Origin: a virus
IMG/VR virus record: IMGVR_UViG_3300009641_000005
Location: 1-44,061 of that record
Strand: one strand, 5' to 3'
Length of the DNA: 44,061 nt
Part shown: positions 4,594-27,815 of the stretch, piece after piece
Layout: each line of letters opens with the position of its first letter
Numbering within the stretch: the first letter of the stretch is position 1
Notes under the pieces: generated by a model
Seen by the model: the letters and a program-made list of their open reading frames with translations, nothing else
Told to the model about the DNA's origin: nothing
Database searches by the model: none
Translations under genes and position numbers: made by a program

Positions 4594-5688
4594 TTACCAG
4601 TCCTCACCATCGGATGCCGGCGTGTGGCGGCCGGATCCAGGAGAAGGTCGTCGGTCAGATCCGGGGGCGTCTTCCCCACGGCCACCGCGCGGACGCGCCT
4701 CACCCGGAGCATCATCGTTAAAGAAATCCTCCTCCGACTTACCACCGGTCGGACGTTCCTCATCAGTACCCCGTCCCCGACCGGCAGGTGGTTCATCCGT
4801 CCCTCGACCTCGACCGGCTGCTGGACGCCGTTCCTGATCGGCATCACGCCCCCGGCCGGTTGGACGCTCATCATCGGTGCCTCGCCCACGACCTGCTGGG
4901 TGTTGATCCCCATCTGGGCCCCGGCCACGCGCTGGCTGACGTTGATCTTGGTCTCCACTCCCAGATCGCTCTCCTCCCTCCAACGCCGCTTCAATCTCGG
5001 CGGTCGGTAAGAGTTTGATCAATTCATCGAGGCAAACACACTGCTCCAACATGCTGGTGCCGTAGGGTTCACGAGTCTTGAAATCGATGGTCTCAGCCTT
5101 GTACCAGACACGCTTGTTGGCCGACTCCTCGACGAATCCAATCTTGAGGGTGAAGCCCTTCTTCAGATGGTAAAACAAGTGGAAAGCATCCTGCTCATCC
5201 TGGTCGCGAATTCGAGCGTCCAGCAAACGACCAAACAGATGATAGGACATGTCCCAAAGCTGGATGCCAGCGTCGGGATTTTCAACATCGATGATCTGGA
5301 AGATTTGGCGCTCGCGTGGGTAGAGACTCTTGATCAGCTTGTCATCAGCCTGCGGATCCATCTTCAGCGTGCGCTGCATTTCGCAGATCGGGCAAGGGTG
5401 CCTATTCCCCTCCAGATCGGCGGTCTCCCTTGGGCAGACAATGCCAATCTGATCGGGGCCTACCCGACCATGAATGAAGTAGGTGCGTTCATAATGAAGC
5501 ATCCCTTCATCGGCGTGCGGATTGCCTTTGGCCGCAACGTAAGGCATGATATCAAGCCGTATCACGCCTGGTTTCTTGACACGAAAGAGCGGCATGTTTT
5601 TTGGCAGCTTCAAGGCAAAGCTGTCGAACTCGCGCTCATGCTCCGCCGCCCGTTTTCTGGCGTCGGAATAGCTATATTCCTTGCTCAT
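4594..5688 (-). CDS. single-stranded DNA-binding protein (gp32-like) with RGRGTD-repeat tail
   Basis: The 364-aa protein has a globular N-terminal domain of about 240 residues. It contains a likely zinc site Cys85...His97-x-Cys99-x2-Cys102 (IVCPRE...RHPCPICEMQ), the arrangement expected of T4 gp32-type ssDNA-binding proteins, and WDMSYHLFGRLLDARI matches the OB-fold region of such phage proteins. The last 120 residues are low complexity: several copies of GRGRGTDEERPTG-like units, then a very acidic end (SEEDFFNDD, finishing DGEDW). Acidic tails usually recruit replication partners, while the RG repeats could add nucleic-acid contacts. The start ATG 5688 overlaps the stop of the preceding small gene (ATGA) and has an AAAGGAAAG ribosome binding site. 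It sits with recA and the UvsY-like gene. Confidence 0.75.
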   Translation of the reverse strand: MSKEYSYSDARKRAAEHEREFDSFALKLPKNMPLFRVKKPGVIRLDIMPYVAAKGNPHADEGMLHYERTYFIHGRVGPDQIGIVCPRETADLEGNRHPCPICEMQRTLKMDPQADDKLIKSLYPRERQIFQIIDVENPDAGIQLWDMSYHLFGRLLDARIRDQDEQDAFHLFYHLKKGFTLKIGFVEESANKRVWYKAETIDFKTREPYGTSMLEQCVCLDELIKLLPTAEIEAALEGGERSGSGDQDQRQPARGRGPDGDQHPAGRGRGTDDERPTGRGRDADQERRPAAGRGRGTDEPPAGRGRGTDEERPTGGKSEEDFFNDDAPGEARPRGGRGEDAPGSDRRPSPGSGRHTPASDGEDW

Positions 5689-8810: not shown

Positions 8811-10013
8811 TTAGGATTTCCCTAACTGCATTATCTGTTTATCTGCTACCAAGAACTCCATCAGAGTATCTGTCCCGCAATATAGCAGCAGTTGACGCAA
8901 TTCCACTTCTTCTTTCAGCAGGTTTAGCTTGCTCCCTTCCTGACTCTGCATGAACTCCCGAATCACTTCATCATAAGCCGGCATCCCGAGGTAGATGTAG
9001 GCTTGAAATTTGAGCCCGCTAATGTGCCGGCGATTATCAAGTACATGGGCCCCAATCACCGTATCATGCAACCAGTGTCGCACGCCACGACCAAATGCCC
9101 AATTAGTCCAACGATTTTCAAACTTCAACATCGAAGCAATGAAGTAGCAGTTGTCAGCATGGAGCAGTTCCTTAGTAGCCTCAATCGCCTCACCCTGCCA
9201 AGGATAGGCAATGGTCTTCTTCCCTTCCCAACAAGCCGACGCGCACAGGATTTGGGCCCCAGGGTACTCAGGCTTCAAGCAGTTGGCCTCATAATCAAAG
9301 GCGACCCGCCCCCCACGTCTGGCCATTTCCCGAAGGATCCGGGCTGCTTCAACTACATCAAACAGCACCTCGACCTGTTGCTCATAATTAGGAACCTTGT
9401 CCCAGGGCCGCCCCCGCAATTCAAAGGCTTCATGCAAGTGCTGTAAGAAGGTTGCCTCCAGAACTTCATCATGCCGTTTGAGAATGTAGCTCGGGTGGTA
9501 GGTTGGACAAATCCAAGCATTTGGTTTCTGACTAGGAATTCTCCAACCGGCCCAGCGACTAATGGGGCCCGGATTGTCATTCCATACTCCACCAATCAGG
9601 CTCTTGACCGCAGCAAAGCCTAGCAGCAAGATCACGTCCGGCTCTAACTGCTCTACCGTGTCGACCAGATTCGGGCGGCAATGGTCAATCATCATCTCAC
9701 TGGTGATCTTGTTTCCGGGCGGCCGACAGATCAGAGCGTTCGTTGTCCAACAGTCCTGATGGAGTTCAACCCCTGCTACCCGATCTAACATGTCCCGAAG
9801 ATAGCTTCCGACCTTGCCCACGAACTGTATCCCTTCTACATCCTCCGTCTCTCCCGGTGCCTCCCCTACCACAAGCACGCGCCGCTCACCCCTCCCAAAG
9901 GGTTTCATCTTGGGTGAGCGGCAAGAACGATACAATCCACACGCCCCACACGCTGGCAGCCGAGGAGGAGGAGCTTTTTGAATCAAAGTTGAGCGAGCGA
10001 AGAAGCCCTTCAT
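8811..10013 (-). CDS. family 4-type uracil-DNA glycosylase fused to DnaQ-like 3'-5' exonuclease
   Basis: The 400-aa protein has two domains. Residues about 20-215 match UDG families 4/5: Cys22-x2-Cys25 with further Cys for a 4Fe-4S cluster, the uracil pocket GEAPGETEDVEGIQFVG (about 50-66), TNALICRPPGNK, and the late motif YHPSYIL. Residues about 230-400 resemble the PolA-type 3'-5' exonuclease: VAFDYEAN (motif I, Asp/Glu), ASMLKFENRW (motif II) and YCGTDTLMEFL (motif III Asp). It would supply proofreading to the separate polymerase gene just downstream and recognise uracil in DNA. The start at ATG 10013 is chosen because it follows the clamp stop (TGA-g-ATG); an upstream frame to 10088 lies inside the clamp gene. 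Confidence 0.85.
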   Translation of the reverse strand: MKGFFARSTLIQKAPPPRLPACGACGLYRSCRSPKMKPFGRGERRVLVVGEAPGETEDVEGIQFVGKVGSYLRDMLDRVAGVELHQDCWTTNALICRPPGNKITSEMMIDHCRPNLVDTVEQLEPDVILLLGFAAVKSLIGGVWNDNPGPISRWAGWRIPSQKPNAWICPTYHPSYILKRHDEVLEATFLQHLHEAFELRGRPWDKVPNYEQQVEVLFDVVEAARILREMARRGGRVAFDYEANCLKPEYPGAQILCASACWEGKKTIAYPWQGEAIEATKELLHADNCYFIASMLKFENRWTNWAFGRGVRHWLHDTVIGAHVLDNRRHISGLKFQAYIYLGMPAYDEVIREFMQSQEGSKLNLLKEEVELRQLLLYCGTDTLMEFLVADKQIMQLGKS

Positions 10014-10014
10014 C

Positions 10015-11046
10015 TCACTCGTCCTTTTGGGCGGGTTCGGCAGCAACCGGGGCCAGCGCGGTAACAAAGGTCCATTTCGGCCCCTCAACCTTAAGTCGAT
10101 CCACCGCTACCTCAGCCTCAGTCTGCTTCTCCGTTATCTCGACCAGCAACCCAGGGGCGATATAGAACGACATCTCTGGGCCATCATAGACCAGCTTCTT
10201 GACCTCTTGATACCAACCGGACACGCCCGTGCCCTTAACTCGCATCCGACCGGAGCGCAGTTCAACCTTGATCAAATTGTCCTCGCTATTCTCCGCCGAG
10301 AAGATAGAGGCCTTCTCTACTACCTCTCCAAGTCCTTTCGGTAGGGTGATCGGGGAACCTTTGACCGCCAGCACCTTCGACAGGTCTTGGTACTCCAGCA
10401 TGTACCGACGCATACTCAACACCAATCCATCCGCATTGCGGAAATGGAGCCATGCCTCACTCTCCGAGAACTCCGACATACCCAACGCCACAATGTTGCG
10501 CAGCGCGTCCCGGCGTACTAAGGTAGCCTTTTTCAAACCGGTCTTAATCCTGACCCGGATGGCCTGCAGGTCATTACAGGATTCAATATGATCAGGGTGG
10601 AGATGGATGCAAGTCATGTTGAACTGACTCTCATCCTGGCTCGCGTGATGTTGGACAAGCCCAACCGCTTCGACAAATTCCTCTGACAAAGGTCGCCAGT
10701 CCCCCGGCTTCTCGACCTTGTTGAACGGAAGGGTCACTTCTGCCTCCAGTCGAATCCCGCATTTGCGATGCTTGCCAATCAGCACCAATTCCTTGCCTTC
10801 GATTTCATATTCGAGGGTTTCTTCCACGAGCTTGCCCAGGATCGCGACGAGCGGCAACGCTGGAACAGCCCCCTCGATATGCAAGTCACAATCCCGGCGA
10901 CAGGCCACTTCATCATTGTAGGTAAAGAGACGCTGCTTTTGAAAAACAAAGCACGAGCTCTGTTCAATAATCTCCCGGGGAGAAAGCCCCGCCTCAACTG
11001 ATTGCAGCTGAGCAAGCAGAGATTCACGATTGATTTGATTTGGCAT
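10015..11046 (-). CDS. sliding clamp (DnaN/beta-clamp-like)
   Basis: The 343-aa protein has the length and three-repeat beta/alpha pattern of DNA sliding clamps. Each repeat begins with a helix (ESLLAQLQSVEAGLS; RRDALRNIVALGM; LPKGLGEVVEKASIF) and continues with strands. VPALPLVAILGKL is like the beta-clamp helix that follows the first strand block, and DNLIKVELRSGRMRVKGTGVSGWYQEV is like the third-repeat strands. Direct sequence identity to bacterial DnaN looks low, so the call leans on architecture and on its place right before exonuclease, polymerase and clamp-loader genes. The ring would hold the polymerase on DNA. The ATG at 11046 overlaps the preceding small ORF by 23 bases with no strong ribosome binding site. 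Confidence 0.7.
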   Translation of the reverse strand: MPNQINRESLLAQLQSVEAGLSPREIIEQSSCFVFQKQRLFTYNDEVACRRDCDLHIEGAVPALPLVAILGKLVEETLEYEIEGKELVLIGKHRKCGIRLEAEVTLPFNKVEKPGDWRPLSEEFVEAVGLVQHHASQDESQFNMTCIHLHPDHIESCNDLQAIRVRIKTGLKKATLVRRDALRNIVALGMSEFSESEAWLHFRNADGLVLSMRRYMLEYQDLSKVLAVKGSPITLPKGLGEVVEKASIFSAENSEDNLIKVELRSGRMRVKGTGVSGWYQEVKKLVYDGPEMSFYIAPGLLVEITEKQTEAEVAVDRLKVEGPKWTFVTALAPVAAEPAQKDE

Positions 11047-11213: not shown

Positions 11214-12275
11214 CTAGGAAGAGGCAAGTCTAAGGGTTGCTATTTTGGGACGAGACTTGAAAGGCCACGGCCATTCTGGCAGCGCCTTCCGAAAGCGTTC
11301 AAACAGCAGCAGGTTGGCTTTGGCTCGCATGGTCCAATCATTGACAACGCCCTTAACTACTATCTTGTCATCCTTCCTATAGCCAAGCGGCACGCCAATT
11401 TCCATAAGCCAATCTCGGACGATCTGCTGCTCCTTCTCTGTCCGGCGATAGAGATGGACGCCGGAATAGTCCTCGAAGTTTGTCTCATCAGAGACCATCA
11501 GCATGTATGGATTCTCGGTCACCACGAATTGCCCCGCTCGATAGTGCGGGACATAGATGCGCCCATACCCGGCGAGCTTCACCCAGCTGGCGCTATCAAC
11601 CGACCACCAAGGGTAGCGGCGCATCAGGCTCCAGGCGGTCATGGCAAACCCATGCGTCCTGACCATCGGCTTGCGCGAGGGCTGATCACAAATCAGATCA
11701 AAGACCTGATCACCCCACGCTAGGTACTCCTCCTTCTTGACCTCCTGACCGAGCCCACCCAACCCGATCAGATCATACTTAGCCTCAAGGTGCTTGGCAA
11801 TCCACTTGAGGGGTGTACCATAATGAATGACTGGAACTGGATGCAGCCCATGCTCATCCTCGAGGTACTTCAGCACCTTCCAAGATAGCTCGGGATTGAA
11901 AATGACATCCACGGTCGCATAGAATTGGATTGCTCCCTGACAGCGTGGGTCCTTGAGGAAGGCAGCATAGGCATCACAATAGGCGTAGAACTCCTTCGAG
12001 GAATAGTAGGCATACTTCAGCTCTTTCTGCCGAGGAGTCAGATCACGCCCATGCACCCCACCGACCACGTGGACGTGCCGATTGTAGAGACCATGCGCCC
12101 CGGAATCAAAGAACACCTGATTGAGCTCTGTCTCAGCGTGTTCAAATAGGTATTGGTTAAGCTGACCATCCGGTGGCAGGCGAGACTCATCATCCAGGCT
12201 GTCCCGCTGCTCCTGCTCTTCAGGAACATAGGAACCAGGACGCAAGGCTCTGCGCTTATTGAATAGGCCGGTCAT
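11214..12275 (-). CDS. dpdA: DpdA-like 7-deazaguanine DNA transglycosylase (TGT family)
   Basis: The 353-aa protein shows marks of the tRNA-guanine-transglycosylase-related DpdA family, which exchanges guanine in DNA for a 7-deazaguanine base. FFDSGAHGLYN (about 55-64) matches the substrate-pocket DSGA motif. PVIHYGTPLKWIAKHL and DLIGLGGLGQEV are mid-barrel TGT-type segments, and MVRTHGFAMTAWSLMRRYP with WWSVDSASWVKLAGYG matches the late barrel region containing Asp-Ser in DpdA. It lies in a translationally coupled run with FolE, QueD and QueE, as expected for phages with 7-deazaguanine DNA. The ATG at 12275 overlaps the upstream stop as ATGA (12272-12275); a TTG 15 bases earlier is rejected. 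The exact base inserted cannot be told from sequence. Confidence 0.8.
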   Translation of the reverse strand: MTGLFNKRRALRPGSYVPEEQEQRDSLDDESRLPPDGQLNQYLFEHAETELNQVFFDSGAHGLYNRHVHVVGGVHGRDLTPRQKELKYAYYSSKEFYAYCDAYAAFLKDPRCQGAIQFYATVDVIFNPELSWKVLKYLEDEHGLHPVPVIHYGTPLKWIAKHLEAKYDLIGLGGLGQEVKKEEYLAWGDQVFDLICDQPSRKPMVRTHGFAMTAWSLMRRYPWWSVDSASWVKLAGYGRIYVPHYRAGQFVVTENPYMLMVSDETNFEDYSGVHLYRRTEKEQQIVRDWLMEIGVPLGYRKDDKIVVKGVVNDWTMRAKANLLLFERFRKALPEWPWPFKSRPKIATLRLASS

Positions 12276-13414
12276 ATACAGCCATGCCAAATGTTGACCT
12301 CCCTATTATCAGCTTTCACCCCGGTGATGATCTCTGCTTCGATGATACGACCAAGATCACACCTTCTGGCAATCCATTCGAGATCAACCAAGGGATGCTC
12401 TTCAGTCAACCGATTCAACAGCAGGCAAGCGTCCTCGACATTGAAAGCTCGATACAAGCGTGAAGCAGGGAGGATTTCGGGAAAACTGCGGAAGTCCGGA
12501 TAGGCCAATTCACATCCTGCAATCACTGCTTCAAGCAGCGTCCAGGAGACATAGTCCTGCAACGAGGAGTTAAACTGAATAGAAGAATTGCAAAGCTCAT
12601 CATAGTATTGCTGTTTGGTCAGACCTGCCTTGAGGATGAAACGAGGCTCATTCCGAGCGTAGGAAAGAATATCAGACAGCAAAAGATGATCATTCGACCG
12701 AAAGTTCTTGCTACTGGTAGTGACCGTCCAAGTCCAATTAGGATGACCGGTTAAGAAACGTTCGGCCACTTGAAGCATGAAGCCCGGATTCTTCTCCCAA
12801 TCAAGTCGGGAGCAAAAGATCACGTTCTTCCTACGTCCAATCGGAACGGACATCTGACAAGCCACCAACCGCGCGTGAATCGGCAGACCGACAACATGGA
12901 TAGGACATTGCACCCCGGCAGCACGCAATTGATCCCGATGGATGGTGCTGGCAACGAAGATGGCCGAATGGAATCGAGTCAGTCCTAGCTCCATTGGTCG
13001 CATCCATTCCCGCATCGGCCAAGTGAAGTCATATTCATCCACGCTCTGCGCATGGAGCATGGAATAAATCTTGGGTTTGAGCCCACACAGGTGCAGCGCA
13101 TAGGGGACCGCTTCAAATCCCGGCGTCCAAAAGTCCTGCAGGAAGATGGCATCCTCGTTGCTAACTGACCCATTCCGAATGAGCTTCAGCAGCAAGGCGA
13201 CCTGCGTGCAAGCATAGATCCCCCGACCAGTTGCATCCAACACCCCCCCGACTTGGATCTGCTCATCAGTCGTTTCCCCGCTGATCGTGGTGAGATTCGT
13301 CCTCGGCGAAGCCTCCCTAACCGCAGCCGGAAACCAATCCTCGCAGAGCTGCTTGGTATAACGGGCAGCTAATGGTTCCAACCCTAGATAAAAAAGCCTC
13401 CGAATTAATTTCAT
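12272..13414 (-). CDS. GT-B-fold glycosyltransferase (family 4-like)
   Basis: The 380-aa protein fits a GT-B glycosyltransferase. The C-terminal Rossmann domain opens with NVIFCSRLDWEKNPGFMLQV (the GT4 start: strand, R-x-x-x-x-KN), then WTWTVTTSSK and KAGLTKQQYYDELCNSSIQF, and ends with SWTLLEAVIAGCELAYPD, the E-x7-E region of sugar-nucleotide transferases in the form LLEAVIAG. The N-terminal domain (GRGIYACTQVALLLKLIRNG) would bind acceptor. It lies between the QueD-like fusion gene and the dpdA-like gene with ATGA overlaps on both sides, so it is almost certainly part of the base-modification operon. Adding sugar to the modified base, or to a precursor, is an inference; cell-surface or capsid sugar transfer is the alternative. 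Confidence 0.75.
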   Translation of the reverse strand: MKLIRRLFYLGLEPLAARYTKQLCEDWFPAAVREASPRTNLTTISGETTDEQIQVGGVLDATGRGIYACTQVALLLKLIRNGSVSNEDAIFLQDFWTPGFEAVPYALHLCGLKPKIYSMLHAQSVDEYDFTWPMREWMRPMELGLTRFHSAIFVASTIHRDQLRAAGVQCPIHVVGLPIHARLVACQMSVPIGRRKNVIFCSRLDWEKNPGFMLQVAERFLTGHPNWTWTVTTSSKNFRSNDHLLLSDILSYARNEPRFILKAGLTKQQYYDELCNSSIQFNSSLQDYVSWTLLEAVIAGCELAYPDFRSFPEILPASRLYRAFNVEDACLLLNRLTEEHPLVDLEWIARRCDLGRIIEAEIITGVKADNREVNIWHGCI

Positions 13415-14271
13415 AATTTGATCTCCACGTCCTGATCAAAGCCGGGATGATATAGCCAGGTGCTCCACAGCTCTGAACTAAAGACCTTGTGCCACACGAT
13501 ATTGTCTTTGAGGATCTGCTTCTGGTAGAGATGCTGTTTGTAGAAGCTCCGTCCAATGATGATTTTCTTAAAGTAATCCGACACCTCATAAAACGGACCG
13601 ACCACAACCACTGCACCGATCTGTTTCTGGTGCGGGAGCATCGACAGGAACTCACAAGTGTTCCTGGCCAGCAGCGGGCTATCAAGCTCAATATCTACCT
13701 GCAGCCTACATCGCTTGGCCTCCTTAAGAATCTGGTCCAGAAAGTAGAGGCCCACCCCATGCCGATTACCAGCCCCGCAGTAAATCCGTTGGACAAAGGA
13801 TCGCCCGGCCAGCTGCTCGACCTTGCGCAATGCGGACAAGGCTTCCGGTACGCTCACCCCACCCGGAATGAAAAGGGTTCGGGCTCCCTTGAAAGGACCC
13901 TCAAGTTCAGTACCAAGGAAGCAGCGGGGCCTCAACATCAATGCCCGATTCGAAGCGGTGACGGACGCCGCATTCTCCCCATCCTCCCCCACTGTCACCA
14001 CCTTCGCTCGGAAGTGAACTAGCAGATCTTCCGCGATCTGTTCGCAGCTCAGATCAAAGCAGCGATCCTCATAGGTCGCCCGAATATATTGATCGAGCTT
14101 CTTCTTGAACATGAAAAACTCAATCTTCCGATCATTGTGGCCGACGTTAAGGGTCACCATGACCGGAAAGATATGCCGATGGAACTGGCGAAGGAAGGCC
14201 ACCTCCTTTGGGGCGTCCTTCCAGCGATGCTGCGCTTGGAACGAGGTGCGGATGTGGAGTTGCGTGCTCAT
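13411..14271 (-). CDS. QueD-like (PTPS-fold) domain without catalytic Cys, fused to unknown C-terminal domain
   Basis: The 286-aa protein begins with a domain that lines up with 6-carboxytetrahydropterin synthase. FQAQHR carries zinc ligand His15, and FHRHIF carries His31-x-His33. These are followed by VTLNVGHNDRKIEFFMFKKK in place of the V.v.v.g.D..GmviDF..lk stretch, and CEQIAEDLLVHF in place of the SEN-IA helix with its Glu. The catalytic Cys that lies four residues before the first His of HxH in QueD is Leu27 here, so the chemistry must differ. Residues about 115-286 (GTELEGPFKGARTLFIPGG, IYCGAGNRHGVGLYF) match nothing I know. ATGA overlaps join it to folE and the glycosyltransferase. It could process CDG, for example by decarboxylation or transfer; that is inference. 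Confidence 0.65.
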   Translation of the reverse strand: MSTQLHIRTSFQAQHRWKDAPKEVAFLRQFHRHIFPVMVTLNVGHNDRKIEFFMFKKKLDQYIRATYEDRCFDLSCEQIAEDLLVHFRAKVVTVGEDGENAASVTASNRALMLRPRCFLGTELEGPFKGARTLFIPGGVSVPEALSALRKVEQLAGRSFVQRIYCGAGNRHGVGLYFLDQILKEAKRCRLQVDIELDSPLLARNTCEFLSMLPHQKQIGAVVVVGPFYEVSDYFKKIIIGRSFYKQHLYQKQILKDNIVWHKVFSSELWSTWLYHPGFDQDVEIKL

Positions 14272-14828
14272 AGAGATCGATGGACAAAGGATATGAATTC
14301 GGCCCGGACTTCTGGTTCAAGAAAAGATCCCCGAAGGACTTGTGTCGTCATCTGCTGGCCCTGCTTGCATATACCCCTGCTCTCCATGCACAGGTGTCGA
14401 GCCGTGAGCGAAACACCCACCCCAATTGGATGTAGATGCTCCATTAGTGCGTCAGCCACCTGCTGAGTAAGCCTCTCCTGGATCTGCAGGCGCCGCGCAT
14501 ATACCTCCAAGACCCGAGAGAGTTTGCTCACCCCAACCACGCGCTTGTCAGGAATATAACCAATGACCGCTGTTCCAAAGAAAGGAGCTAAGTGATGCTC
14601 GCAGAGACTGTAGAAGGGAAGGTCTCGCAGGAGAACCATTTCATTATATTTCTCCCCCCCTTCCTTGAAGCACGTCAGCAGCTTGCCCACGTCCTGATGA
14701 TAACCGACCGTCCACTCCTTCCAAGCTCTTAGCACCCGAGCCGGTGTCTTGAGCAGACCTTCCCGCATTGGGTCCTCCCCGACGAAGCGCAAAATCTCCC
14801 GGATCGTTTCTTCATCGGCTCTCTTCAT
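14268..14828 (-). CDS. folE: GTP cyclohydrolase I
   Basis: The 186-aa enzyme turns GTP into 7,8-dihydroneopterin triphosphate, the first step to folates and to 7-deazaguanines. The family motifs are present: EDPMREGLLKTPARVLRAWK near the start, SLCEHHLAPFFGTAVIGYIP with the zinc Cys-Glu-His-His, VVGVSKLSRVLEVYARRLQI, QERLTQQVADAL, and the late CMESRGICKQGQ stretch with the second zinc Cys. The length is that of a bacterial type IA enzyme. It starts one base after the queE stop (TGA-g-ATG) and ends in an ATGA overlap with the QueD-like fusion gene. Its place here marks it as feeding the deazaguanine pathway rather than folate. Confidence 0.95.
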   Translation of the reverse strand: MKRADEETIREILRFVGEDPMREGLLKTPARVLRAWKEWTVGYHQDVGKLLTCFKEGGEKYNEMVLLRDLPFYSLCEHHLAPFFGTAVIGYIPDKRVVGVSKLSRVLEVYARRLQIQERLTQQVADALMEHLHPIGVGVSLTARHLCMESRGICKQGQQMTTQVLRGSFLEPEVRAEFISFVHRSL

Positions 14829-14829
14829 C

Positions 14830-15519
14830 TCAATATCCTTTCTTCAGGTCACCACCGAGTGGGACCGGCGGCTTAGTCCTATTATCTAGGAAGTCGGCGG
14901 CGTAGAGTTTGTGAAGCTGCCAACCTACGCGCAGAATAGCAGAGCCAGACAAAGCCCAACGTACCATTCCATCGAGCAGAGCTTTGTCATTCCGACGCGA
15001 CCATTCTGGATGCAGCCAAATTGGTACATTAGGATCCAAGTTTCCCCCAAGCTGATCGCGCAACGTATCAAGCCACCATTCAACGTCCGAAGGCTGCTCG
15101 ATGATCAGCTTCAGCTCATCGGCCAAGGCAATGGATTGAGGAGGAGGAATGTTCTGCCGCTTGGGAGAAAGGGTGACCCAATCAAAGATGTCTGGGAACA
15201 TTCGATAGCCGGAGGTCTCCAAATGCACACTCTGATTGGACGCGTGCATCAGATCAACCAGCAGGTGAAGATCGTGGACAATCGGCTCCCCACCGGTGAT
15301 GACGATAAAATCGCAGCAGGTCTCTCCGGCCTCTTTCACGAGCTGCTCCTCCGAGATCCTTTCAATCTTGTCCGGAATATACTTCGGGTGCCAAGTCCCA
15401 GCTGCATCACACCAAGGGCACTTCAATGGGCACCCGAAGGTACGAATGAAAAAGGCTGGTCGGCCAAGATGAACCCCTTCCCCTTGGAAGCTATAGAAAC
15501 GCTCATGAATTGGTAGCAT
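14830..15519 (-). CDS. queE: 7-carboxy-7-deazaguanine synthase (radical SAM)
   Basis: The 229-aa radical-SAM enzyme converts 6-carboxytetrahydropterin to 7-carboxy-7-deazaguanine (CDG). The N-terminus FYSFQGEGVHLGRPAFFIRT is diagnostic for QueE. The cluster-binding Cys30-x3-Cys34-x2-Cys37 (GCPLKCPWCD) has the canonical CxxxCxxC spacing, and the SAM-binding GGEP motif follows (VITGGEPIVHD). KRQNIPPPQSIALADELKLII corresponds to the substrate-binding C-terminal half. It follows queD with a 1-base gap and precedes folE. All parts look intact, so CDG production seems possible if iron-sulfur supply comes from the host. Confidence 0.92.
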   Translation of the reverse strand: MLPIHERFYSFQGEGVHLGRPAFFIRTFGCPLKCPWCDAAGTWHPKYIPDKIERISEEQLVKEAGETCCDFIVITGGEPIVHDLHLLVDLMHASNQSVHLETSGYRMFPDIFDWVTLSPKRQNIPPPQSIALADELKLIIEQPSDVEWWLDTLRDQLGGNLDPNVPIWLHPEWSRRNDKALLDGMVRWALSGSAILRVGWQLHKLYAADFLDNRTKPPVPLGGDLKKGY

Positions 15520-15520
15520 G

Positions 15521-16000
15521 TCAGGAAATGGTCGCGAAGTTCTTCTCGTCCTCCCAAACTGTCACCTTCGAAACCCGCACCTCGCGCTCGGCTAACTCAT
15601 CCCTAGAACGTAACAGGACGTTAACCTCCTCTAAGACCTGCCGAGCTATCCCTTCCGCCCCACAATTATGAACAAGGGTAATCTTGGCCAGAGGCTTAAG
15701 CCCAATCGCCTTCATCGCAGCACCGCAGAGCACACTCTCAAGATATTCCCGACCGGGATCAGTCCGATTCAACACGAGGGTATGATCAAAGCGTTCCTCA
15801 AGCCACTTCTTCAGCCAATCCAACTTGCCGAAGTCAATCACAAATCCGTTGTCATCAAAATCCATGCAGGAGAACTGGATCTCGATCTTCCAGTTATGCC
15901 CGTGGATAAGTGCGCAGTGTCCATCGTGAGAATGCTGCCGATGGGCGAAGGGAAATGGTCCGAAGACCTTGCTGCAAGTGATGCTCATAGTAATATCCAT
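15521..16000 (-). CDS. queD: 6-carboxy-5,6,7,8-tetrahydropterin synthase
   Basis: The 159-aa enzyme converts dihydroneopterin triphosphate to 6-carboxytetrahydropterin. The zinc ligands are His20 (FAHRQ), His33 and His35 (IHGHNW), and Cys29 sits four residues before His33 in the catalytic C-x3-H-x-H pattern. It also has VIDFGKLDWLKKWL, FDHTLVLN with the Asp-His pair, and CGAEGIARQVLEEV with the catalytic Glu. It is thus a complete QueD, in contrast to the Cys-less relative three genes downstream. The ATG at 16000 lacks a good Shine-Dalgarno and is preceded at once by a hairpin with a T-rich tail. It is the first gene of the deazaguanine cluster. Confidence 0.93.
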   Translation of the reverse strand: MDITMSITCSKVFGPFPFAHRQHSHDGHCALIHGHNWKIEIQFSCMDFDDNGFVIDFGKLDWLKKWLEERFDHTLVLNRTDPGREYLESVLCGAAMKAIGLKPLAKITLVHNCGAEGIARQVLEEVNVLLRSRDELAEREVRVSKVTVWEDEKNFATIS

Positions 16001-22095: not shown

Positions 22096-22791
22096 TTACC
22101 TCCGAGCCAAGCAGGACCGGACTTGCTGGGCCGAGAGACCAATGCGGGTAAGCAGCCAGACTTCATCTTCTGATAGTCCGGCTCGAGCTAACATGCGCTC
22201 GACCCCAGTGCAGGGCAACCGCCTTTGGGTAACACTAAGCTGGGAAATCGCGTGTTTGATCTCCTCCATTACCTCCCGCACTTGACGCTTACTCCAGCCA
22301 AGGATGGCCAAATACTCACGCACGCTGCGCAGGTAAGCCTTTGGGCTTCGGACTTGATCCCAACGCATCAGATGCTCCAGTTCCTGGGGGGTGTTAAGAA
22401 AAAGCCGGAGCACCCCACGGGCCTCTTGCTTCAGCTCGCTTTCAAGGAGCAGCACAAAGCGACTCGGCAACTCCTTCCCAACCATCTCCTCCTTGACCTC
22501 TGGCAAATTGCGGTGCTTCTGCTGCTTCATCGTGAAATTGTACAGCTCGCAGTTGAGGGCAAAGTAAAGGAAGGTCGGGAAGCGGCACCGCTTGGCGAAC
22601 CGATCAGGCTGGTAACCCCGATAGGAGCGAACGAACGTGAGGTGTGCTTCACCGAGCACCTCCTCGAATGATAATCCACTCCGGGCGACGAAGTAGTGAA
22701 CTACCTTATAGATGAGCAAACGGACATCATTGTAGGTGTCCGTGAGAGCTTCTTGTTCAATCGCAGTCAGTGGCAGGGTGGTCGTGGACAT
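22096..22791 (-). CDS. sigma-70 region-2-like protein
   Basis: The 231-aa protein has an N-terminal part resembling sigma factor region 2: YNDVRLLIYKVVHYFVARSGLSFEEVLGEAHLTFVRSYRGYQPDRFAKRCRFPTF. The spacing of FEEVLGEAHL (region 2.1-2.2 like DLIQEGNLGL), the YQPDR...C-F-FPTFLYFALNCEL segment (region 2.3-2.4) and the LYNFTMKQQKHR tail are what sigma proteins show. The C-terminal third contains two HTH-like stretches (LAILGWSKRQVREVMEEI and LLTRIGLSAQQVRSCLA) that could stand for region 4. A phage-coded sigma factor could direct late genes. Homology is weak and a non-sigma DNA-binding protein is possible. ATG 22791 is preferred over TTG 22806. Confidence 0.58.
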   Translation of the reverse strand: MSTTTLPLTAIEQEALTDTYNDVRLLIYKVVHYFVARSGLSFEEVLGEAHLTFVRSYRGYQPDRFAKRCRFPTFLYFALNCELYNFTMKQQKHRNLPEVKEEMVGKELPSRFVLLLESELKQEARGVLRLFLNTPQELEHLMRWDQVRSPKAYLRSVREYLAILGWSKRQVREVMEEIKHAISQLSVTQRRLPCTGVERMLARAGLSEDEVWLLTRIGLSAQQVRSCLARR

Positions 22792-22806
22792 AGGATGCCT
22801 TTGCAA

Positions 22807-22822
22807 TGTTAGATCCCTATGC
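22807..22822. promoter_or_regulatory. Half-conserved TGTTAG-N4-CTA site upstream of sigma-like gene
   Basis: TGTTAGATCCCTATGC repeats the left arm and spacer length of the inverted repeats at 664-679 and 24665-24680, while the right arm keeps only CTA. It lies between the terminator at 22832-22875 and the start of the sigma-like gene. On the minus strand TTGACC and TAACAT are nearby but with only 14 bases between them, so a sigma-70 promoter is doubtful. It is likely part of the promoter or operator of this transcript. Confidence 0.32.
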
Positions 22823-22831
22823 TGTGGTCAA

Positions 22832-22875
22832 GAAAAATCCTCCTCGGCCTTATGAGGGCACAGGGAGGATTTTCT
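22832..22875 (-). terminator. intrinsic terminator after DUF932-like gene
   Basis: GAAAAATCCTCC pairs with GGAGGATTTTC through an imperfect loop. Read on the minus strand the hairpin ends in GGAGGATTTTTCTTG, a GC-rich stem with a T-run, just 20 bases beyond the DUF932-like gene. The T-run also exists in the other direction (ATTTTCTT), so the element may work both ways. It separates the 22.9-24.6 kb genes from the replication operon. Confidence 0.75.
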
Positions 22876-22896
22876 TGGACTGCGCTGTGTGCCGTT

Positions 22897-23619
22897 TTAA
22901 TTGCGGCCGACCGGCAGCAGCTGGCGAAACTCGTTGATCTGGTCCATCTGGCGCAGGGGCGGCTCCTTCTTCACCACCTGGGTGAAGGCGTTGAGTAGGC
23001 TCCAACTCGTCCTCGGCTTGAAATCAGTGAACGCCGGGTTTCGATAAGCCCAATCAACTTGCCCGATCAACGACCAAGGCATGACGCCCTGCCGACCGGT
23101 CTCGACTAGGACCTCATAAACCTCAGCCTCGATCAGCGTGTGGTCTTTCATCTTCTTGACCATCATCGGAATGCGCCCGACCTTCTCCAAGTACTCATCC
23201 ATCGCCACATGCAGCGCCTCCGGTAGGTCGAACCCGGTGGTGTGCTTCTTGCACAGCACCACGTCCCCGGTGACCATGCCGTTCATGCAAACGAAGACCC
23301 GAGTGCCTACGACCAGCTTCAGCGTCCGGCGCATGGCGTTGGATGTGAGGAGGCCTAACTCGAGACGCTGATCATCCGGCATCTCGACCGACGGAATTTC
23401 GATCCTGAAGGTTCCGGCCATATCAGCCCGATCCTTGCTGAGGGAAAAGACCGCCTCCTTGGTGGCCCAGCCCCTCTGCTCGCACTCGCTGCGGATAGCC
23501 GTCACGAGGTCGAGGTGTTTGATGCCCTGCCAAAAGCTGCGGGCCCATTTCGGACGAATGAGCGGAACCCGCTTGAGGGCTTGCTCGGTAACTGCGTTGG
23601 TTGCATTGGTATGAATCAT
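22897..23619 (-). CDS. DUF932-like protein
   Basis: The 240-aa protein resembles DUF932 (YfjQ-type) proteins of phages and plasmids. Its fold signature includes GLLTSNAMRRTLKLVVGTRVFVCMNGMVTG, in which F-V-C-x-N-G-M is the family hallmark (strand ending in CxNG), and a C-terminal WSLLNAFTQVVKK helix like the N..T..l end of DUF932. Function is unknown; proteins of this family lie near defence or anti-restriction genes in plasmids. A strong AAGGAG leads the ATG at 23619. It ends next to a terminator. The call is by motif memory; the catalytic role is unproven. Confidence 0.72.
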   Translation of the reverse strand: MIHTNATNAVTEQALKRVPLIRPKWARSFWQGIKHLDLVTAIRSECEQRGWATKEAVFSLSKDRADMAGTFRIEIPSVEMPDDQRLELGLLTSNAMRRTLKLVVGTRVFVCMNGMVTGDVVLCKKHTTGFDLPEALHVAMDEYLEKVGRIPMMVKKMKDHTLIEAEVYEVLVETGRQGVMPWSLIGQVDWAYRNPAFTDFKPRTSWSLLNAFTQVVKKEPPLRQMDQINEFRQLLPVGRN

Positions 23620-24626: not shown

Positions 24627-24759
24627 AGCGTACAGAGCACCAACAAGACCGCAACACTTAGTCCTGTTGGGTATCTAACAGTAGAACAGCTTATGCACAG
24701 GATAAGTGTCGCATAAGTCACTAGCAGCAGGTTGGAACGCTGCTGATAATAGCTGCGCA
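24627..24759. promoter_or_regulatory. divergent intergenic region with inverted repeats
   Basis: This is the only point where transcription diverges, so it must hold promoters for both directions. Visible elements are ACAGAGCACC at 24632-24641, TGTTGG-N4-CTAACA at 24665-24680 (repeats of the site at 664-679), and CTTAT-gcacagg-ATAAG at about 24690-24706. A GATAAT box lies about 9 bases before the plus-strand ATG at 24760, which, with no Shine-Dalgarno there, would suit a leaderless mRNA. I cannot place matching -35 boxes with confidence. Confidence 0.5.
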
Positions 24760-25104
24760 ATGGACACGAAAGACTTCCCCGACTGGCGCGCCCCGCATAC
24801 GCTGCGTGATTTCCCACCCTCTCGACATCGAGGCCTGCAGAAGTGCCTGTTGAGGGACTATGGAGACAAAATTGAGCTGGTCTCCCTCGTGGTGAAGGAA
24901 AACTGGCGAGACAAGGGGGTGGGCAGTCGCATAGTCAAAAAGATCCAGGAATTGCAGAAGCCCATCTTCTTGCACCTCCGCTCTGACGGCCCCCCCGGCG
25001 ACAGGTTCGAGAACATCGGGAGGCTGATCCACTTCTACCAAAACCTGGGATTTGAATTCCTTGGTCAGTCCAATTATCAAATGGTCTGGGTTCCACGCTT
25101 TTGA
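24760..25104 (+). CDS. GNAT-family N-acetyltransferase
   Basis: The 114-aa protein shows the acetyl-CoA-binding motif A of GNAT enzymes (VVKENWRDKGVGSRIVKKIQEL, with the R/Q-x-x-G-x-G/A core DKGVGS) and the later IHFYQNLGFEFLG, the typical C-terminal Y/F-x-x-x-GF signature. Substrate is unknown; phage acetyltransferases may modify host proteins or small molecules. The ATG 24760 has no Shine-Dalgarno; a GTG at 24706 in frame with AGGA four bases upstream is the alternative and would add 18 residues. Its stop shares bases with the next ATG (TGATG), so it is coupled to the SbcC-like gene and heads the plus-strand operon. Confidence 0.78.
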   Translation: MDTKDFPDWRAPHTLRDFPPSRHRGLQKCLLRDYGDKIELVSLVVKENWRDKGVGSRIVKKIQELQKPIFLHLRSDGPPGDRFENIGRLIHFYQNLGFEFLGQSNYQMVWVPRF

Positions 25105-26141
25105 TGCCACTTAAAAAGCTAGTCCTCGAGAACTTCCAGGTTCATCCCAAGCTGTCCCTTGATTTGGACCCGCATATCACCTGCATCATTGGACCATCCG
25201 ACGTTGGCAAGAGTGCAGTCATTCGGGCCCTGCGCTGGTTGTGTCAAAACGTGCCTGATGGAGCAGAGTTCATCCGCGATGGGACCAAGCAGGCCATCGT
25301 GACTCTGCAAGCCGACGGTAAGACCATAATTCGCACCCGAGGCACAGAAAACAGTTACCAACTTGGTCGGGAGGAATTCAAGGCCTTCGGGAAAAGCGTA
25401 CCAGAAGAGATCATCAAATTGGTCCGAGTCGATGACATCAACTTCCAAGGCCAGCATGATTCCCCTTTCTGGTTTGCTGAGTCAGCCGGGGAGGTCGCGC
25501 GGCATCTGAACCGGATTGTCAATCTCGATGTCATTGACCGGGTGCTGGCTGACATTGCGGCCAAGAAGCGCGAGGCTGACCAGGCCTGCAAGCTGCTCGA
25601 GGAAAGGCTGAAAGCGGCCAAGCAGCAGAAGGACTCACTCCAATTTGTCGTGGGACTGAACAAGGAATTGAAAATCCTCGAGGATCGGGCCCAACGACTA
25701 TCCCAATCGCAGGCCAAACGGAAGGCGCTGTCGGTTCTAGTCGAAAAGCTCCAAAACCTGCGGACCGCGCGCGATACAGCCCAAAAGGTCGCGAACCGGG
25801 GCGTTTCCGCCCTCGATATAGCCCTAAAAGCCCTGGAAACGTCCCAACTACTGTCTAAACTGCAGAGCCTGGTAGGGAGAGCGAAAACGCTGTCTCGTGC
25901 CCGGAAGTTATCCCGGCCGGATTTCGACCCGATTGAAAAGCTGCGAGCAAGCTATGACTCGGTTTATGAGCGTTGGGACAACTTGACCAATCAGCTTGAT
26001 TCCTTGCGGACTCTTTGGCGCCGACGGAAGGAGACTAAGGAACGAGCTGATACCTTAGCTAAGGACTTAGATCAGAAGACTGAAGGCCGATGCCCGCTGT
26101 GTGGAGGACTCCTTGATGAAACCCATCGCTGTGCTGTGTAG
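25104..26141 (+). CDS. SbcC/Rad50-like ATPase, N-terminal half ending at a CxxC hook
   Basis: The 345-aa protein starts LKKLVLENFQVHPKLSLDLD, the standard opening of SMC/Rad50 proteins, with Walker A at 30-37 (GPSDVGKS) and the Q-loop strand (INFQGQHDSPFWF). From about residue 130 it is coiled coil. It ends with CPLCGGLLDETHRC at residues 330-343, a CxxC like the zinc hook that normally sits in the middle of Rad50/SbcC, and then simply stops. No signature motif or Walker B is present in this chain; these are on a separate gene (27246-27815). The start ATG 25104 overlaps the previous stop. It would pair with the SbcD-like nuclease encoded next. Confidence 0.85.
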   Translation: MPLKKLVLENFQVHPKLSLDLDPHITCIIGPSDVGKSAVIRALRWLCQNVPDGAEFIRDGTKQAIVTLQADGKTIIRTRGTENSYQLGREEFKAFGKSVPEEIIKLVRVDDINFQGQHDSPFWFAESAGEVARHLNRIVNLDVIDRVLADIAAKKREADQACKLLEERLKAAKQQKDSLQFVVGLNKELKILEDRAQRLSQSQAKRKALSVLVEKLQNLRTARDTAQKVANRGVSALDIALKALETSQLLSKLQSLVGRAKTLSRARKLSRPDFDPIEKLRASYDSVYERWDNLTNQLDSLRTLWRRRKETKERADTLAKDLDQKTEGRCPLCGGLLDETHRCAV

Positions 26142-27021
26142 TGACATTCACTTGCAAGAGCGCCCGCCCGTGGTGCGCAGTAATGAGCCGAGCTGGTGGG
26201 CAGCTATGCAACGGCCCTTTGATGAAATTGGTAGCTTTGGCGTCCCGATCTTCTACGCTGGTGATATCTTCAATCATTGGCGCAGCCCACCGGAGCTAAT
26301 CAATTGGGCCATTCAACACCTCCCTCCCGGCTTTGCGGTGCCGGGACAGCACGACCTACCTCTCCATAACCTGCTAGACCTGCACAAGAGCGCGTTCTTC
26401 ACCTTGCTAGAAACAGGGACGTTGTCACTGCTCATGCCCGATAAGCCTACACTCATCGGGAAGAAGATTAGAGCGTGGGGCTTCGCTTGGGGACAACCTC
26501 TACGATCCTGCTCGATTAAGAAGGAACCAGACCGGATCAACCTCGCGATCGTCCACGCCTACGTCTGGCGCCAAGGATACAACTTCCCTGGCGCGACCGA
26601 GGAGACGCGGGTTTCAGCCTACGCTAAGGCCCTGCATGGCTATGACGCAGCGGTCTTCGGGGACAACCACAAAGGGTTCACCACTTACAAGAGTGGATGC
26701 AATGTCATCAACGCTGGGACGCTCATGCGTCGGACGATCGACGAGATCAACTACTGCCCCCAGGTCGGACTGCTGATGGAAGACGGAACTATCGAGCCCT
26801 ATCAACTGGATTGCAGCGAGGACAAGCTTCTCCCGCGCACTGAGGCCAAGCTGATTGAAGAAGAGACCTTCAAGATGGAGTCCTTCCTGCAGGAATTGGA
26901 AAAGCTCGGGCATACCAATCTCGACTTCCGGCAAGCGGTCCTTGATTACCTGATCACCTACAAGGTTTCCAAAGCCGCGCAGACTATATTGAAGTATGCC
27001 TTAGACCACGCCCATGATTAG
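26116..27021 (+). CDS. SbcD/Mre11-like nuclease (metallophosphoesterase)
   Basis: The 301-aa protein has the five phosphoesterase motifs in order: VLCSDIHL (Asp9, His11), FYAGDIFNH (Asp), PGQHDLPLH (GQHD in place of GNHD, a notable change), AIVHAYVW (His), and VFGDNHKGF (GDNH in place of the usual G-H-x-H). It is shorter than Mre11 but similar in size to phage SbcD-like proteins (T4 gp47 type). With the split SbcC-like ATPase it would process DNA ends. The ATG at 26116 is set by GGAGG 8 bases upstream, which lies inside the coding end of the hook-bearing gene (26-base overlap). Confidence 0.85.
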   Translation: MKPIAVLCSDIHLQERPPVVRSNEPSWWAAMQRPFDEIGSFGVPIFYAGDIFNHWRSPPELINWAIQHLPPGFAVPGQHDLPLHNLLDLHKSAFFTLLETGTLSLLMPDKPTLIGKKIRAWGFAWGQPLRSCSIKKEPDRINLAIVHAYVWRQGYNFPGATEETRVSAYAKALHGYDAAVFGDNHKGFTTYKSGCNVINAGTLMRRTIDEINYCPQVGLLMEDGTIEPYQLDCSEDKLLPRTEAKLIEEETFKMESFLQELEKLGHTNLDFRQAVLDYLITYKVSKAAQTILKYALDHAHD

Positions 27022-27280
27022 CCTCGACAAATATCAGAAGCTCAAAGCCCAAGTCGATGAGGCCAAAACCTCGGCCGCTGAAGCGGAAGGGGCCTACCAG
27101 CAAGCCATGCAAGAGCTGAAGCGTGAGTTTGGCTGTGAGACCCCCGAGCAAGCCAAGCGGATGCTATCTGACCTGACCGCCGAGCTTGAACGGACTGAAC
27201 GCAAGTTGGAAGAAGCTCTGGCGAACTTTGAAAAGGAATGGTCCCATGCAGTCGCTCACGCCGCTGAGACAGGAAGTTGA
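27014..27280 (+). CDS. 88-aa coiled-coil protein between SbcD-like and SbcC-like genes
   Basis: Nearly the whole product is a charged heptad-like helix (LKAQVDEAKTSAAEAEGAYQ, later ELERTERKLEEALANFEKEW), typical of the descending arm of an SbcC/Rad50 coiled coil. It has one Cys (FGCETPEQ), not a CxxC. It overlaps sbcD-like by 8 bases and the next gene by 35 bases, so it is translated with them. I infer it is a detached coiled-coil segment of the same ATPase complex. Alternatively it is an independent regulator of the complex. Confidence 0.75.
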   Translation: MISLDKYQKLKAQVDEAKTSAAEAEGAYQQAMQELKREFGCETPEQAKRMLSDLTAELERTERKLEEALANFEKEWSHAVAHAAETGS

Positions 27281-27815
27281 CGCGAGATTGGCCGACTACC
27301 GCGCCGCCGAACGAATCCTCGGGCAAGAGCAGGATGCCCTGATTGCAGCCGAGGACTTGGTCGTGGACTGTGAGGAAGCGCAGAAGATCGCGCAGCTAGT
27401 CGCCCAGACCGTTCAACAGCAAGCCCACGCCCGATTGGCCAAGGTCGTATCCCAATGCCTTAGCACCGTCTTCGATGAGCCCTATGAGTTCAAAATGATC
27501 TTCGAGCAGAAGCGAGGGCGCACGGAATGCCGACTGGTATTTGTGCGCAATGGGCTGGAAGTGGACCCAATGTCAGCGGCCGGAGGAGGAGTCGTCGACG
27601 TTGCTTCCTTCGCGCTGCGCCTAAGCTGCATTCTTCTCGCCAAGCCTCCGGTGCGTCGGCTGCTAGTGATGGATGAACCCTTCAAGTTCCTAAGCGAGGA
27701 ATATCGCGGGCGCATTAGGACGATGCTGGAGCAGTTGAGCGAGGAGCTAGGCGTCCAATTCCTGATGGTGACGCACATCGACCAACTCAAGACCGGCACG
27801 GTCGTAGAGCTGTAA
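27246..27815 (+). CDS. SbcC/Rad50-like ATPase, C-terminal half (signature and Walker B)
   Basis: The 189-aa protein starts with coiled coil and ends in the C-terminal ATPase lobe. The ABC signature region is MSAAGGGVVDVASFALRLS (about 109-127), Walker B is RLLVMDEPFKFLS (Asp143-Glu144 pair), followed by the H-loop VTHID. It lacks Walker A, which is on the gene at 25104-26141, so an active nucleotide site would need both chains. The ATG 27246 has AAGGAA 9 bases upstream; the longer TTG frame is not needed. The FxLR/GGG signature type is seen in phage SbcC-like and gp46-like proteins. The plus-strand operon ends 12 bases later near a hairpin. Confidence 0.82.
   Translation: MQSLTPLRQEVDARLADYRAAERILGQEQDALIAAEDLVVDCEEAQKIAQLVAQTVQQQAHARLAKVVSQCLSTVFDEPYEFKMIFEQKRGRTECRLVFVRNGLEVDPMSAAGGGVVDVASFALRLSCILLAKPPVRRLLVMDEPFKFLSEEYRGRIRTMLEQLSEELGVQFLMVTHIDQLKTGTVVEL

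Follow-up and report, generated by a model that had tools for sequence, protein, structure and literature searches.

A Mre11-Rad50-type locus of phages and Clostridia in which the Rad50 subunit is probably divided among three polypeptides

To our knowledge, Rad50 has been treated as universally a one-chain SMC-like motor, in which a continuous arm couples the zinc hook to the ATPase head. Here we analyze a locus from the 44,061-base IMG/VR virus record IMGVR_UViG_3300009641_000005 (the window, along the whole of which positions are counted) that departs from this plan. Four overlapping plus-strand genes at 25104-27815, named N, D, S and C in their order on the DNA, share with Rad50/SbcC and Mre11/SbcD a two-lobe ABC head with Walker A far from the signature and Walker B, a coiled-coil arm, a CxxC hook, and an adjacent Mre11-like nuclease. 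In contrast to Rad50/SbcC, the ATPase is spread over three chains with a break just after the hook, the signature reads xxGGG, the outgoing arm is longer than the returning pieces, and in the phage branch the nuclease gene lies between the pieces. We consider it very likely that the four genes encode a complex of the Mre11-Rad50 (SbcDC) type, the Rad50 subunit of which is made of three polypeptides that assemble in trans.

Among the described systems, phage T4 gp46/gp47 likewise combines a phage-encoded, hook-bearing SbcC-like ATPase with an SbcD-like nuclease, but gp46 is a single chain of 560 amino acids (aa) with a CPTC hook near its middle. The crystallized ATPase domains of Pyrococcus furiosus Rad50 (1f2t/1f2u, 1ii8, 3qkr) are heads composed of separate N- and C-lobe chains, deposited as such for 1f2t, 1ii8 and 3qkr, and thus a two-chain Rad50 head can form. 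These two-chain heads are engineered truncations of a natural single chain and, unlike the split version, have neither a hook nor a distal arm. Single-chain, hook-bearing SMC relatives exist in archaea (PMC9389158). These archaeal SMC-related proteins (ASRP; coalescin and Sph) resemble the split version in their zinc hook, short arm and N-half similarity (5e-17), but each is one chain, and Mre11 is unmentioned in PMC9389158. Another unusual gene architecture of the same complex, the Mre11/Rad50 fusion, is known (Mimivirus R555; PMC3175470) and is the opposite of a split; we encountered an armless fusion of D, N and C (locus L206, below). We found no description of a natural split of Rad50/SbcC in the open-access full texts searched.

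A sequence-only reading of the window had noted that a Walker A gene ends just after a CxxC hook, that the signature and Walker B are encoded by a separate 189-aa gene, that an SbcD-like nuclease gene and an 88-aa coiled-coil gene lie between these two, and that all four genes overlap. Each of these statements holds (Table 1). The hook motif of N is followed by 12 residues and the stop codon, and it is terminal in the complete relatives as well; the signature is a signature-like SAAGGG, and the H-loop of C reads VTH. Counted from ATG starts, the overlaps are 26 bases (N/D), 8 bases (D/S) and 35 bases (S/C), with alternative starts for N (TTG at 25101) and possibly for D (GTG at 26101). The three-piece interpretation is based at the sequence level on gene order, motifs, the conserved break, the homology of each half and the lack of fused forms, and it draws computational support from a composite head model and from the phage set, in which N covaries in antiparallel register with both C and S.

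The break is conserved. Two protein scans and one profile scan of IMG/VR yielded 114 viral loci (the window included, some contigs counted twice), and the four-gene order, for which a search in other phages had been suggested, was found in 92 of them; the remaining loci mostly lack one member, in several cases where the contig or the flank ends. Among GenBank phages, Microcystis phage Mvi-JY20 has the order N-D-(S)-C, and Bacillus phage vB_BboS-125 has N-HNH-(S)-C-D. The D gene of the latter (L002:6977-7957, about 22423-23403 of the record, 326 aa) falls into a gap of the GenBank annotation, and the genome paper of this phage mentions neither SbcC nor Rad50. A genome scan added 80 chromosomal loci, mostly from Bacillota (Caloramator, Tissierella, Finegoldia, Thermosediminibacter, Carboxydocella and others), of which 66 have the order D-N-S-C. 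The earlier idea of a nuclease gene inserted inside the ATPase is therefore valid for the phage branch, but not for the chromosomes, where D comes first, or for vB_BboS-125, where it comes last. RNase Y (rny) is located within the fetched flank of 52 of the 80 chromosomal loci, and recA, often with recX, is found just upstream in the isolates inspected; usually, the chromosomal locus is flanked by recA/recX on one side and by rny on the other. In a tree of the two lobes built by a quick method, the viral and chromosomal sets fall on opposite sides of one branch (Shimodaira-Hasegawa-like approximate likelihood ratio test support, 87).

All 67 distinct complete viral N proteins stop shortly after CxxC (median 6 residues), as do 73 of 75 chromosomal N open reading frames (ORFs; median 18 residues), the two exceptions being front fragments of interrupted frames. 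CxxC is kept in all complete relatives, at the end of the chain rather than in its middle. No ORF joins any two of N, S and C among the viral and chromosomal loci. In gene order, S invariably follows N and immediately precedes C, and nearly all untruncated loci have a neighboring Mre11-like gene. The only fused relative found within the family is a 700-aa ORF in one genome (L206:5652-7754, minus strand; G056:C6), which comprises an SbcD-like domain, lobe I and lobe II with hardly any arm and no hook; it adjoins genes that look by eye like addA/addB. Breakage of one long sbcC frame by a sequencing or assembly error, or by decay, has a negligible probability in our judgment. Frame breaks are common in metagenomic contigs, and N is indeed interrupted into two ORFs in Caloramator sp. 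mosi_1 (L058) and Tissierella sp. P1 (L068), through sequencing error or real decay. Against this stand equal breaks, open frames and conserved motifs in the 67 viral N proteins and in dozens of isolate chromosomes, D or other ORFs inserted at the break, and covariation together with invariant catalytic residues that indicate working proteins. We rejected chance, sequencing error and a pseudogene, since the chain is broken in the same way in independent viral contigs, in two GenBank phages and at about 80 bacterial loci; the restored single frame that might have refuted the split was not found.

On chromosomes, the split version appears mostly to stand in for ordinary SbcC. A strong match to C was obtained in about 50 of 299 genomes drawn from the Bacillota phylum. 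In 12 genomes with a split locus we searched with the SbcC model for both lobes in one chain, a criterion chosen with regard to the SbcC cut-off itself, which was passed by just one of 14 control genomes. Such a chain was present in Desulfotomaculum copahuensis and undetected in the other 11 genomes, where divergent SbcC-like proteins are possible; other matches to this model in the 12 genomes were partial, many of them of SMC, RecN or RecF length. The SbcD model detected a phosphoesterase in all 12 genomes, in some of them the D protein of the split locus together with further phosphoesterases. Separately, two genomes (L208 and L209) have, elsewhere than at their main split locus, another and divergent copy of it that may be mobile or carried by a prophage.

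Homology to Rad50 and Mre11 was assessed for each half. N matches Pfam AAA_23 (3.7e-13) and, weakly, Rad50_zn_hook, and the Pfam matches of C (ABC) and D (phosphoesterase) are below threshold only. The family profile of N finds Rad50 N-halves (1f2t_A, 1ii8_A; about 1e-13), that of C finds Rad50 C-halves (3qkr_B, 1ii8_B; 5e-10), and that of D, a calcineurin-type phosphoesterase, finds Mre11 (9e-7). An AlphaFold2 model of N (predicted local distance difference test score, pLDDT, 84) consists of lobe I, helices 141-178, 180-268 and 275-326, and then the hook; the Rad50 N-half in the Mre11-Rad50 complex of P. furiosus ranks first among its PDB matches. By motifs, Pfam, profile and model, the Walker A lobe of N is a Rad50-type ABC head lobe, and the lobe of C, with its Walker B, D- and H-loops, is of the Rad50 type too. 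The signature position of C reads xxGGG (SAAGGG here, DARGGGVVD-type in Clostridia) in place of the classical LSGG[EQ]. D of the window contains SDIH, AGD, GQHD, H147 and GDNH; phage D proteins retain DxH, GD and H and mostly have GQHD and GDNH instead of the GNHD and GHxH motifs, whereas the chromosomal D sequences inspected keep GNHD/GHYH-type motifs. S matches curated families only through scattered coiled-coil hits, two members matching ASRP. Taken together, the split version is homologous to Rad50 and most likely works like it, but departs from the one-chain definition.

It is improbable, in our estimate, that the ATPase belongs nearer to the archaeal ASRP, or another SMC-related family, than to Rad50, with D as a loosely associated nuclease. 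ASRPs also have a zinc hook (PMC9389158), and in NCBIfam the top match of the window N is ASRP (5e-17), followed by the Rad50 models. However, N scores 61.7 bits against an ASRP cut-off of 300 (NF045487), just as N and C of the window score below every curated Rad50/SbcC cut-off of NCBIfam, including TIGR00618 and the Rad50 equivalog models. Among 28 family members, as many or more match Rad50 models (Rad50_Sulf 25, PRK03918 24) as match ASRP (24); the solved-structure matches favour Rad50, and the nearly constant adjacency of a Mre11-like gene argues in the same direction.

Assembly in trans was addressed by covariation analysis in 62 viral N/S/C triples (effective number of sequences 60), with 300 row shuffles as the null. 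The analysis was explored stepwise, using all columns, then gap-masked columns, then omitting columns that couple with everything, and significance is read accordingly. The arms of N and C are linked by an antiparallel band at N + C = 216-217 (C counted from an upstream TTG; z score 5.1, reached in none of 300 shuffles), which returns in all split halves. A second antiparallel band links the N arm and S at N + S = 263 (z score 5.1, none of 300 shuffles). In the window, numbered from ATG starts, residue c of C would face N residue 195-c, approximately, and residue s of S about residue 262-s. Parallel bands were null for both viral pairs, and N x N covariation gave no support for a self-hairpin between the two long helices of N. 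The signal of S stems from its residues 45-88, the first third being opposite gapped N columns. The two antiparallel registers are what would be expected if the returning arm is made of S and C, which behave as its successive strands in gene order.

A rather doubtful alternative is that a hook-tethered ATPase is assembled in trans from N and C, and that S is a separate accessory factor binding near the hook or the DNA, outside the returning arm. It would be consistent with the two helices and the conserved break of S, with the absence of S x C covariation in the phage set, and with an N arm whose length S + C does not track. It would also fit the split-half analysis, where the N x S band is less stable. 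The invariable position of S directly upstream of C and after N, as well as the N x S band itself, argue for S as part of the arm.

A composite model bears on the head. The N, S and C genes of Caloramator sp. SKW144 (L062) are, by coincidence, in one reading frame, and we modelled this region as one chain read through the stop codons, with stops as glycine. The model (pLDDT 76) matches complete Rad50/SMC heads across both chain ends, with Z scores of 28.1 to Rad50 3av0_B over 353 residues and 31.2 to an SMC head. Covariation and this model point to assembly of N, S and C in trans, short of proof, and they speak against the lack of interaction that had been named as a refuting outcome. Very improbable, by comparison, is that N and C never form one head and are separate regulatory or decoy proteins hindering host SbcCD. 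Phages are known to counter host SbcCD, TelN (PMC12624138) being an example, but the two halves retain complementary catalytic motifs, the split locus is standard on chromosomes, and the N and C arms covary. The earlier proposal of a break at the hook, with each arm as a separate subunit, is supported by the conserved break, both covariation bands and the composite head. It is refined in that S and the N-terminal coil of C, which are parts of different proteins, together make up the returning arm, giving a Rad50 in three pieces.

Several observations weigh against a three-piece Rad50 of this kind. The evidence for complex formation is computational rather than direct, the covariation analysis draws on few sequences, its N x S band is less stable in split halves, and the chromosomal set of 69 triples gave no significant covariation band. 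Joining the chains artificially, as in the composite, favours intramolecular packing. A rough, motif-based estimate gives the N arm about 186 residues in phages and 301 on chromosomes, against about 145 for S plus the C arm, and matching arm lengths failed as a test of a simple three-piece arm (r = -0.19 for N arm versus S + C). As a further refinement, S does not complete an arm that matches N over its full length, S + C being shorter than the N arm. Since the N arm exceeds S + C, its distal portion (275-326 here) is without a partner among the known strands, and part of the arm is unpaired or otherwise folded; near the hook it may find a partner in the other protomer, or else it may fold back. 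Finally, catalysis could differ, given xxGGG instead of LSGGE in C, and the replacement of N by Q and of H by D at two of the usual metal ligands in the phage nuclease.

In the proposed complex, N would supply ATPase lobe I, the outgoing coil and, at its C-terminal end, the zinc hook, and C would supply the head-proximal returning coil and lobe II, the two making a complete ABC head in trans. S would be a separate strand of the returning coil further out than C. ATP would be sandwiched between two heads, driving their engagement over DNA ends, and the Mre11-like D would dock near the heads and cut these ends, most likely as D2 with two N-S-C units. Two N hooks would share one zinc ion and tie both arms together. 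We infer that zinc is bound, that the subunits have this stoichiometry, that D is an active nuclease, and that the complex takes part in recombination, repair or replication of the phage. The phage also encodes a RecA-like protein, a 5'-3' exonuclease and a family-A polymerase, and by analogy with T4 gp46/47 the split complex probably serves recombination or repair beside them.

The gene overlaps of the window would favour balanced translation; they are not general, and gaps or inserted ORFs separate the genes in many relatives. Within the hook codons (TGT GGA GGA within 26091-26108), GGAGG lies shortly 5' of the D start codon and is a possible Shine-Dalgarno site for the nuclease gene, as is the hook stretch in a few relatives (L033, L157, L176 and L177). 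We rejected this double use as a general cause of the break, the best site being inside the hook stretch in 9 of 34 overlapping pairs.

Table 1. Features of the split locus and its upstream neighbor in the window
Feature	Position	Strand	Description and basis
GNAT acetyltransferase-like gene	24706..25104	+	directly upstream of N, one base common (TGATG)
N, Rad50 N-half, 345 aa	25104..26141	+	ATG 25104; ATPase lobe I with Walker A, outgoing coil, C-terminal CxxC zinc hook
Walker A GPSDVGKS, N residues 30-37	25191..25214	+	sequence; G30, G35 and K36 invariant in 28 relatives
Zinc-hook motif CPLC, N residues 330-333	26091..26102	+	sequence; neither cysteine varies among 28 relatives
D, SbcD/Mre11-like nuclease, 301 aa	26116..27021	+	ATG 26116; DxH, GD, GQHD, H and GDNH ligand motifs; family alignment; profile to Mre11
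S, 88-aa coiled-coil protein	27014..27280	+	family alignment; N-arm covariation; proposed distal section of the returning arm
C, Rad50 C-half, 189 aa	27246..27815	+	ATG 27246; ATPase lobe II with signature, Walker B and H-loop, preceded by the head-proximal returning coil
ABC signature-like SAAGGG (within SAAGGGVVD) in C	27573..27590	+	aligns to the Rad50 signature
Walker B, LLVMDEP region of C	27657..27680	+	D143 and E144 invariant

The GNAT-like gene is probably just transcriptional context. Replication and structural genes read around the locus are on the minus strand, unlike N, D, S and C. Also on the minus strand, 14268-16000 encodes FolE (GTP cyclohydrolase I), a QueE-like radical SAM protein and a QueD-like 6-pyruvoyl tetrahydropterin synthase, a 7-deazaguanine (queuosine-type) set that suggests modified phage DNA; the neighbors at 11214-14271 had no Pfam match. 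In the product of a minus-strand gene at 8811-10088, residues 65-208 form a domain of the uracil-DNA-glycosylase superfamily, and the roughly 200 residues after it match nothing in Pfam; this gene adjoins that of the family-A polymerase, which has only 507 aa. The minus-strand gene at 4594-5688 encodes 364 aa, likewise with no Pfam match, and its product carries a long tail made up of degenerate PAGRGRGTD-like repeats.

In this lineage, conserved in phages and Clostridia, the chain is interrupted both at the hook and within the returning arm, which suggests that Rad50 can do without a continuous chain through the hook. The natural system makes each lobe and arm strand separately expressible, mutable and exchangeable, so that communication between hook and head becomes directly testable. 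As a tentative possibility, these proteins constitute a widespread natural class of Mre11-Rad50, the sole such complex in many Clostridia, with an arm of exchangeable strands, where release of S or C would open the coil or shift its register and N would keep the hook. If so, the arm could admit DNA or signal the ATP state along its length, unlike one-chain Rad50. For annotation, many Clostridia have genes next to recA labelled hypothetical, ATPase, exonuclease or DNA repair exonuclease, and these probably encode the Mre11-Rad50 complex of their hosts.

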